This document shows, piece after piece, positions 2,441 to 3,752 of a DNA stretch of 38,096 nucleotides. The notes under the pieces are model-generated. The model was not told the DNA's origin. It was given only the letters and a program-made list of their open reading frames with translations, and did not search any database. The position numbers and the translations under genes are program-made. Position 1 is the stretch's first letter. Each line of letters starts with the position of its first letter. Source of the stretch: Alkalibacterium thalassium (GTDB taxonomy: Bacteria > Bacillota > Bacilli > Lactobacillales > Carnobacteriaceae_A); assembly GCF_900101165.1 (NCBI RefSeq), contig NZ_FNFK01000015.1, positions 1 to 38,096 of the forward strand, read 5' to 3'.

Positions 2441-2467
2441 TCAGAAATATATATAGTGAGCACTCTT

Positions 2468-2510
2468 GCCGGTCAGACAGGGTCAATCCCGTCTGACTGG
2501 CTTTTATTTT
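2468..2510 (+). terminator. Rho-independent terminator of the MscS gene
   Basis: GCCGGTCAGACAGGG pairs with CCCGTCTGACTGGC around a TCAA loop (one G-T pair, one bulge), then CTTTTATTTT. Confidence 0.9.
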
Positions 2511-2599
2511 GTCAAATAGATTCAATTATGTTTATTTACACGAAGCGTTCTGCGATTCGTTTCCTTATTAAAAAGAAATTCTTTACTCTCTTCTTCGGT

Positions 2600-3150
2600 A
2601 TCCCGATAGATGTTAATTGAGTAAATTGGCAGTCAGCTGTCTAAAGAGTTACGTTTTAAGATCACACTCCTATGGGTCACGTTCAGTCACTTCCTGCTTT
2701 CTCTCAGCCTACTTGAGCTCCCATTAGTGCAGTTTCTGCTGAACCGAAGGGGGAAACTTACCGTTAGAACCATTCTAATTTCAGTTCAGGCAGAGTGATC
2801 GAATAGAAGTCTTCGCTAAACCCCTTATAGTCAAAGTTCATGAAATTCTTTGACTTATTAATGCCGTTAGATGGCTTCTAGTTACAGCTTATGAAATTAT
2901 AGCTGTCTTAAATGCCGTTAAACGGCCTCTAGTTACAGCTTATGAAATTATAGCTGTCTTAAATGCCGTTAAACGGCCTCTAGTTATAGTTCAGTCAAGG
3001 ACAACCTTTGACTGATGCTCTTAGACAACTCCTAATTACACTTTCTCTAACAATATGGACGATAAAATCACATTAGACTCCCCTCTAGTCTCAGTTTAGA
3101 TAAGCTATCGAAGCATCAATTATCATTAGACTGCACTCCCACGACACTTA
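2600..3150. repeat. Degenerate tandem array of ~51-53 bp hairpin units (gene-free region)
   Basis: No convincing gene lies in 2441-3200. A TTAGA/TTAAA-like box recurs at 2713 (TTGAG), 2764, 2816 (CTAAA), 2867, 2918, 2969, 3021, 3073 and 3126, i.e. every 51-53 bp, usually followed by CTCTAGTTACAG-like sequence. Units from 2867 and 2918 are nearly identical. Several units hold a stem-loop at the same phase: AGTCAAAG/CTTTGACT (2829-2836, 2848-2855), ACAGCT/AGCTGT (2884-2889, 2901-2906 and 2935-2940, 2952-2957), CAGTCAAGG/CCTTTGACTG (2992-3000, 3005-3014). A second small palindrome, GCCGTTAAACGGC, sits at 2914-2926 and 2965-2977. Units near 2606 and 2656 are weaker. Confidence 0.75.
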
Positions 3151-3163
3151 TTATCTTTCCATA

Positions 3164-3195
3164 AGAAAAGCAGCCGATTGAACTGCTGCTTTCCT
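3164..3195 (-). terminator. Terminator of the CBS-domain gene
   Basis: AAAGCAGC (3167-3174) pairs with GCTGCTTT (3185-3192); on the minus strand the stem is followed by TTTTCTTAT. It lies directly after the stop of the gene at 3201. Confidence 0.75.
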
Positions 3196-3200
3196 ATAAA

Positions 3201-3719
3201 TTATTTGAGAACTGACTCTTTCTTCACTTCTTCATCCCGGTTTAGCTTTTCCTGAGTTTTTTCTCTGACATCATACAGCTTTTCAAACTCATGGGCAATT
3301 CGATTGGTCCCTTTGAGTATTTCACTGCGGGTGATGATGCCTTTGAAATAATTATCGTCATCTACTACGGTGATGAAGGCATGATTGACTAAGGCATGAA
3401 GAACCTCTTCCAGTTCAAAGTCTTCTTTCACCACAGGATAGTCTGTATCCATTACTTCTCTTACTTCAATTTCTCCCAATTTCTCAAATTCGACATCTTC
3501 AATATTCATGATTGCCTGAAATATTGTCGGCATGGATATCAGCCCACACATTTTTGATTCATCATCAAGAACGGGAACAACTGCATATTTATCAGATGTT
3601 AAAATAAGTAAAGCGTGATTCAGTCTGTTCTTTAAACCTACGACAGCAACTTCTTCTGCAGGTTTGACAAGGGCCCCTTCACTAGAGATAAGTAATGATT
3701 TTATTTTCTCACCTATCAA
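3201..3719 (-). CDS. cbpB: CBS-domain protein of the CbpB/YkuL (c-di-AMP-binding) family
   Basis: About 172 residues made of two CBS domains (roughly 15-75 and 85-145), with PVLDDESKMCGLIS in the first and ITVVDDDNYFKGIITRSEIL in the second, then a charged helical tail. Size and sequence match the CbpB/YkuL proteins (DarB in Bacillus), which bind cyclic di-AMP and, when free of it, stimulate the (p)ppGpp synthetase Rel and in Bacillus pyruvate carboxylase. The start is uncertain: a GTG at 3728 lies too close to GAGGA, so the TTG at 3719, 8 nt from GAGGA, is preferred. It has its own promoter and terminator. Confidence 0.8.
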   Translation of the reverse strand: MIGEKIKSLLISSEGALVKPAEEVAVVGLKNRLNHALLILTSDKYAVVPVLDDESKMCGLISMPTIFQAIMNIEDVEFEKLGEIEVREVMDTDYPVVKEDFELEEVLHALVNHAFITVVDDDNYFKGIITRSEILKGTNRIAHEFEKLYDVREKTQEKLNRDEEVKKESVLK

Positions 3720-3752
3720 TTTATTCACTCCTCGTATCTAGTCTTCTCATAT

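Follow-up and report, generated by a model that had tools for sequence, protein, structure and literature searches.

The array and its unit

The window (the whole stretch of 38,096 nucleotides analysed here, from Alkalibacterium thalassium) contains near its start a gene-free gap of 760 bp (2441–3200), bounded on the left by a forward-strand ORF call (1538–2440) that we take to be a mechanosensitive-channel-like gene, and on the right by a reverse-strand gene (3201–3728) for a CBS-domain protein, recognized by Pfam search. The gap holds an array of tandem units (2703–3150, no strand assigned), which we call family A, with dyad cores phased at 51–53 bp, the outermost being weak. Six cores are clear, namely 2754–2788 (centre 2771, leave-one-out score 22.8), 2806–2840 (centre 2823, 13.3), 2857–2891 (centre 2874, 29.2), 2908–2942 (centre 2925, 33.2), 2959–2993 (centre 2976, 32.5) and 3011–3045 (centre 3028, 14.3), giving steps of 52, 51, 51, 51 and 52 bp; the leave-one-out profile was made from the other arrays, excluding the window array, its A. 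pelagium ortholog and one further locus (L097). One weak outer unit was placed on the left by eye (2702–2736) and two on the right at 53-bp steps (3064–3151), by a 75% repeat (3062–3085 with 3115–3138) plus inspection by eye. The original prediction had counted at least eight units in kept phase: the six cores bear this out at 51–52 bp, and the outer units remain weak. In the control that it proposed, 1000 dinucleotide shuffles reached a chain score of at most 14.1 vs. 113.4 for the window, placing the tandem units far beyond chance, and its near-identical units were recovered as 2.5 copies of 51 bp with 96% matches.

The window's own unit, taken alone, does not reveal a significant dyad (P = 0.31); the dyad is visible at the family level. 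There it reads TAAACTRYARCTAGA-N5-TCTAGYTRYAGTTTA, imperfectly, and is made of two inverted half-sites (each reading outward TCTARYKRYAGYTT) that together form a site of ~33 bp. With positions numbered from the axis outward, TA at 5 and 6 and A at 12 are 93–97% fixed, and T at 15 is 85% fixed; the spacers between cores have no evident consensus. A typical array has five clear dyads, and up to nine, at 51–52 bp, numbers to be read with the fact that several contigs begin or finish inside arrays. The 160 steps between neighbouring cores measured 51 (99), 52 (60) or 53 bp (1), partly by construction since the chain search favours 51, and this regularity agrees with the earlier remark that the phase is close to five helical turns. 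A centre could be defined for 22 of the 43 arrays, a set that contains orthologs as well as the near-copy L097; counted from that centre, there are strong cores at 0, 51 and 103 bp and weaker ones at 155 bp (56% above the cut) and 208 bp (37%); the values at 261 bp (5%) and 314 bp (9%) resemble those at control offsets (2–7%). The element thus comprises about nine sites over ~450 bp, weakening outward.

At the Rfam gathering cut-offs the window yielded no family for the array and a single match elsewhere, an M-box magnesium riboswitch (RF00380, 18712–18882, reverse strand, 134 bits), and among open-licence full-text papers, judged by titles and abstract starts, we recognized none describing the class, in line with the earlier statement that no named element is of this kind. 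A left module (window 2469–2589), which consists of a terminator-like CCGGTCAGAC..GTCTGACCGG and a CGATTCG..CGAATCG hairpin, is shared with the left flanks of two other loci (L009 and L011) and precedes only these three arrays.

Spread of family A

The proposed check for further copies was positive. By our grouping there are ~20 family A arrays in the A. thalassium genome and 22 in that of A. pelagium, 19 of them at orthologous sites in the two species, so that 19 of the 20 own arrays have a partner. Blastn with a 601-base query pointed to further arrays in the own genome. There a unit-pair model (R1), scoring 150 of 905 candidates, gave 107 matches with E no higher than 1; we grouped these as 20 arrays, the weakest at E 0.13. 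R1 carried a core structure, and its detection of arrays is no evidence for that structure; a sequence-only model (R2) recovers 82 of the 84 unit pairs listed for R1. With the stricter filters used for searches over more than 40 genomes, R1 found matches of E 0.01 or better in 3 of the 60 genomes searched, the own among them: A. thalassium, A. pelagium and G009, another Alkalibacterium. The last has a single array (L097, contig C39), at the end of a 5-kb contig and 97% identical to locus L012 of the own genome, which is possibly contamination or a recent transfer. R2 matched 5 of 295 genomes of the order, with those in G182 and G267 (L117, L116) resembling, on reading, unrelated hairpins that look like chance; at E up to 0.5 it gave 2–6 weak matches in seven further genomes of the genus (best E 0.037). 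One pattern match to a viral contig was likewise scored as chance.

The arrays lie between genes, as far as simple ORF calls define these: 41 of the 43 loci are flanked by predicted ORFs on both sides, and at the other two the contig ends first. In one case (L075) an ORF of 73 codons overlaps the array, and in another (L079) the array touches one of 79 codons; most neighbouring ORFs are ~130–330 bp away, with exceptions from touching to 1 kb. By the same calls the 22 A. pelagium loci sit between tandem genes in 14 cases, convergent genes in 7 and divergent genes in 1. Dyad sites of operator size could mark operator arrays of a single transcription regulon, which we regard as highly improbable, given these distances, the one divergent pair, and the functionally mixed Pfam matches of the 40 flanking proteins searched (four had no match). 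In A. pelagium, dnaA (G007:C12, 37.7k) lies about midway between family A arrays at ~6.3k and 73.4k, which may be chance.

At two loci relatives have short gaps free of the array. At the MscS–CBS site, five other Alkalibacterium records (L100, L102–L105) lack the array and have the two genes convergent, their matched parts 76–149 bp apart; in L099 and L101 the contig finishes first. The gap downstream of luxS measures 718 bp here, 132 bp in G010 and 196 bp in G011, the gene that follows being judged by eye to be the same. Together with the dispersed, extragenic and palindromic character of the arrays, these gaps would suit arrays that are BIME- or BOX-like non-autonomous mobile repeats, spread by a transposase acting in trans and now fixed; we consider this explanation unlikely, for reasons that emerge from comparison with those elements.

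As described in PMC2817692, BIMEs are extragenic palindromic units in alternating regular arrays, species-specific and with several families per genome, tied to RAYTs; inter-REP segments in Stenotrophomonas vary substantially in length, and complementary mutations are suggested for REPs. The present arrays are also extragenic, palindromic and regularly spaced, with species-specific families, but their step of 50–52 bp recurs in unrelated families, in contrast to the variable inter-REP length in Stenotrophomonas, and their arms lack the complementary changes suggested for REPs (82 and 104 cores, below). Whereas BIMEs are RAYT-associated, A. pelagium has no match to the Y1 transposase (PF01797) despite its 22 arrays; matches number seven in G000 and occur in 5 of 12 genomes of the genus in all. 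BOX of Streptococcus pneumoniae is a dispersed intergenic composite that has end modules and, between them, tandem boxB modules whose number varies (PMC3049150). The present arrays share the dispersed intergenic placement and the variable number of tandem units, but lack a counterpart to the ends of boxA-(boxB)n-boxC: the 550-bp flanks of 20 loci contain no end module common to most, and beyond the module of the window, L009 and L011 only two short pairs at E 2e–4. What they conserve is dyad sites and phase, not a predicted RNA fold, and conservation of half-site and phase after insertion would not be expected of dead mobile DNA. A CRISPR array was also considered and rejected, the repeats being degenerate and the spacers being common to the orthologous sites of the two species.

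Pairing and conservation of the dyads

The original prediction had hairpin arms changing together with pairing kept, and read this as selection for RNA structure or for palindromic protein sites. We compared the observed share of Watson–Crick pairs with that after reshuffling of one arm, in 82 cores of the own genome and 104 of A. pelagium. Observed and shuffled pairing were close at arm positions 3–16 in both species; the largest deviations were z = +2.7 at position 15 in the own genome (0.2 in A. pelagium) and, for positions 9 and 14, roughly –2.4. In the central loop, z at position 1 was 2.8 and 2.0 in the two species. No covariation of arms was found in these 186 cores. Since the two arms change almost independently of each other, the dyad reflects shared sequence rather than kept pairing, and the proposed stem covariation does not hold up; of the two kinds of selection named, the one for protein-type sites is the one that fits, with RNA structure poorly supported.

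The inverted repeats named earlier are present in the window, among them AGTCAAAG/CTTTGACT (2829–2855, forward strand) and CAGTCAAGG/CCTTTGACTG (2992–3014, forward strand), both in spacers, but they are local and do not recur across the array spacers: axes 17–26 bp from the core axis have 0.24–0.31 Watson–Crick pairs, as most off-core axes do, vs. 0.62 at the core axis (186 cores, a descriptive comparison). The orthologous arms in A. pelagium, compared by eye with G–T counted as a pair, keep 8 of 8, 6 of 6 (twice), 4 of 6 and 3 of 9 pairs, which again fails to bear out compensatory stems; the first of the two spacer repeats is kept, with two G–T pairs, and the second is mostly lost. Mismatches over the 43 loci, on the strand as fetched, sum by our count to a slightly uneven 285 G–T vs. 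362 A–C, and the weak heterogeneity of this ratio among arrays (p = 0.0065) comes with orthologs counted twice, which are not independent. A structured RNA in the form of a chain of hairpins could draw on the local inverted repeats, the stem kept through G–T pairs and this slight skew, but it was rejected on the lack of covariation and we leave it almost no weight.

Conservation between the two species follows the half-sites. Cores of the 19 ortholog pairs have an identity of 0.860, compared with 0.788 for spacers and 0.829 for the sequence outside, and by position identity reaches 0.99 (position 5), 0.95 (6), 0.96 (12), 0.93 (15) and 0.90 (16), against 0.76–0.83 at positions 17–25; pairs exist only where an array is detectable in both species, which biases these values towards conservation. 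For indels we used 17 pairs, leaving out the window (whole-unit change) and L074 (one core only). Arrays had 13 indels in 3144 aligned bases (five of them from L014 alone) vs. 159 in 8186 for other intergenic sequence (P = 7e–11), and the flanking bases taken as coding had 28 in 3510. Identity in this comparison is similar (0.834 in arrays, 0.813 in other intergenic sequence), and per substitution indels are about four times rarer in arrays (0.025 vs. 0.104, P = 8e–9). Half-site letters and spacing thus both look selected. In the window array itself whole units have been gained or lost between the species, which suits plain repeat expansion, and the A. pelagium ortholog has more near-identical central units than that of A. 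thalassium.

Taking together the observed number of arrays, the sites and their spacing, the absence of covariation, the conservation both of half-site positions and of spacing, and the array-free gaps at two loci, we suspect, with a probability of about 0.55, that the array is a row of phased sites for a putative dimeric DNA-binding protein that builds a larger nucleoprotein structure. Each 51–53-bp unit would carry one two-fold symmetric site of ~33 bp with its two inverted half-sites, and since the steps approximate five helical turns (at 10.2–10.6 bp), the sites would lie near one face of the helix. Most simply, a dimer on each dyad would contact its neighbours, and the sites so joined could form a larger body that wraps or bridges DNA, with a role in chromosome layout or segregation rather than in a neighbouring gene; the protein, its assembly and its function are what we infer from the sequence features.

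Among known systems the nearest are BIMEs, BOX elements and the F centromere, and none matches fully. The MIRU minisatellites of mycobacteria resemble the arrays in having units a little over 50 bp long and in occupying many intergenic loci. The F centromere has the closest anatomy with a known mechanism: F parS (PMC6238139) consists of twelve tandem repeats of 43 bp and contains ten inverted repeats of 16 bp, to which ParB binds. Like the arrays here, it is made of tandem units each containing an inverted-repeat site (a protein site being a prediction in our case). Compared with F parS/sopC, the units here are 51–53 rather than 43 bp, the dyads ~33 bp, and the loci ~20, dispersed over the chromosome. 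That the arrays are a partition centromere of plasmid type, with ParB on sites arranged as in F sopC but acting on the chromosome, seems to us very unlikely, the more so as the sequence is lineage-specific and blastn found no match for a family A array among plasmids and phages, nor for family B (below) among plasmids.

Same-step arrays of other sequence

Downstream of luxS in G002 there is a different array, with a 52-bp step. This array is a member of what we call family B (GAAGGGCACGC-N11-GCGTGCCCTTC and variants), which occurs in 4 of the 27 genomes of the taxonomic family that were searched and is absent among them from the own genome and A. pelagium. Lag 52 was best in 20 of 21 family B loci, which had been found using a query with a 52-bp step; the lag-52 value of three (L170, L173 and L185) is 0.39–0.41, near background, and another (L174) gives 1.0 at several lags, probably from a masked run.

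For a census of steps, Tandem Repeats Finder (arrays of at least 80 bp, step at least 15) was applied to stretches of two Alkalibacterium genomes without family A or B, plus the mscS, luxS and plsY loci, which were picked because the own genome has arrays there. Of the 20 arrays, 7 fall in frames that are likely coding, and their steps are all multiples of three. The steps of the other 13, which include one array of family A and one of family B, are 50, 51, 52, 104 or 156 bp; coding here means open frames, and 3 of the 13 are crossed by frames of 115–154 codons. The density of arrays in this sample is not representative, since the G011 and G006 stretches begin at contig starts, where repeats break assemblies. 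Most pairs of families are no more alike than shuffles, although some pairs taken as unrelated reach z = 4.8, and F and G (z = 7.2) were counted as one. When pairs are counted, a dyad at P < 0.05 is obtained only for the A consensus and G, and when arms are scored, for the A consensus, B, K, N, P and Q; 7 of the 13 units scored for arms, the window's own included, are at P > 0.3, with a combined P of 2e–4. A dyad in every family is therefore not established, and the common step is. This suggests that across families spacing matters more than letters.

In another genus of the same taxonomic family (G015), 8 of 14 arrays fall on a 51-bp grid, with steps of 51 (three times), 103 (twice), 205, 255 and 306 bp. 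Those with longer steps have identities of 0.34–0.46 at lag 51 (background 0.34) vs. 0.56–0.93 at the block step; some same-step arrays contain higher-order blocks of 4–6 units. Samples from two further genera (G016, 400 kb; G019, 202 kb) had no arrays at 50–53 bp, and G019 had one at 49; the same-step class is thus not general in the taxonomic family, as judged from small samples.

That sequence families differ both between and within genomes counts against the reading as phased protein sites, since one protein would not easily recognize them all. The differences might reflect a set of related proteins, a protein that senses geometry, or copying paced by a ruler. More tentatively, and with the balance of our judgement somewhat against it, we propose a class of satellite DNA in this bacterial family (presumably Carnobacteriaceae), in which a step of about five helical turns is fixed and the sequence turns over between lineages and loci, with higher-order blocks like those of centromeric satellites; behind it might stand a chromosome protein that reads geometry or a copying enzyme with a 51–52-bp ruler. 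Should selection act on the step but not on the letters, the arrays would be a bacterial counterpart of satellites with a locked period and would give direct access to a protein that organises DNA. Their small size, their dispersal and their presence in a type strain make binding, phasing and removal testable.

Alternatively, the arrays could be selfish or neutral satellite DNA enlarged by slippage and unequal recombination, which would leave young units at the centre and old ones outside. The near-identical central units of the window array, more numerous in A. pelagium, and the higher-order blocks of G015 are of the kind that this reading predicts. It is nonetheless rather improbable, because position-specific conservation and few indels are not its marks and free slippage leaves the 50–52-bp step over unrelated sequences unexplained.

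Two other repeat types were seen alongside these arrays. G015 has five arrays with steps of 125–128 bp, near 2.5 times 51 (in L271, L273 and L284), and one at 146. At a contig start in G006 (L222, 1–175) there is a 27-bp repeat, likely coding and presumably collagen-like.
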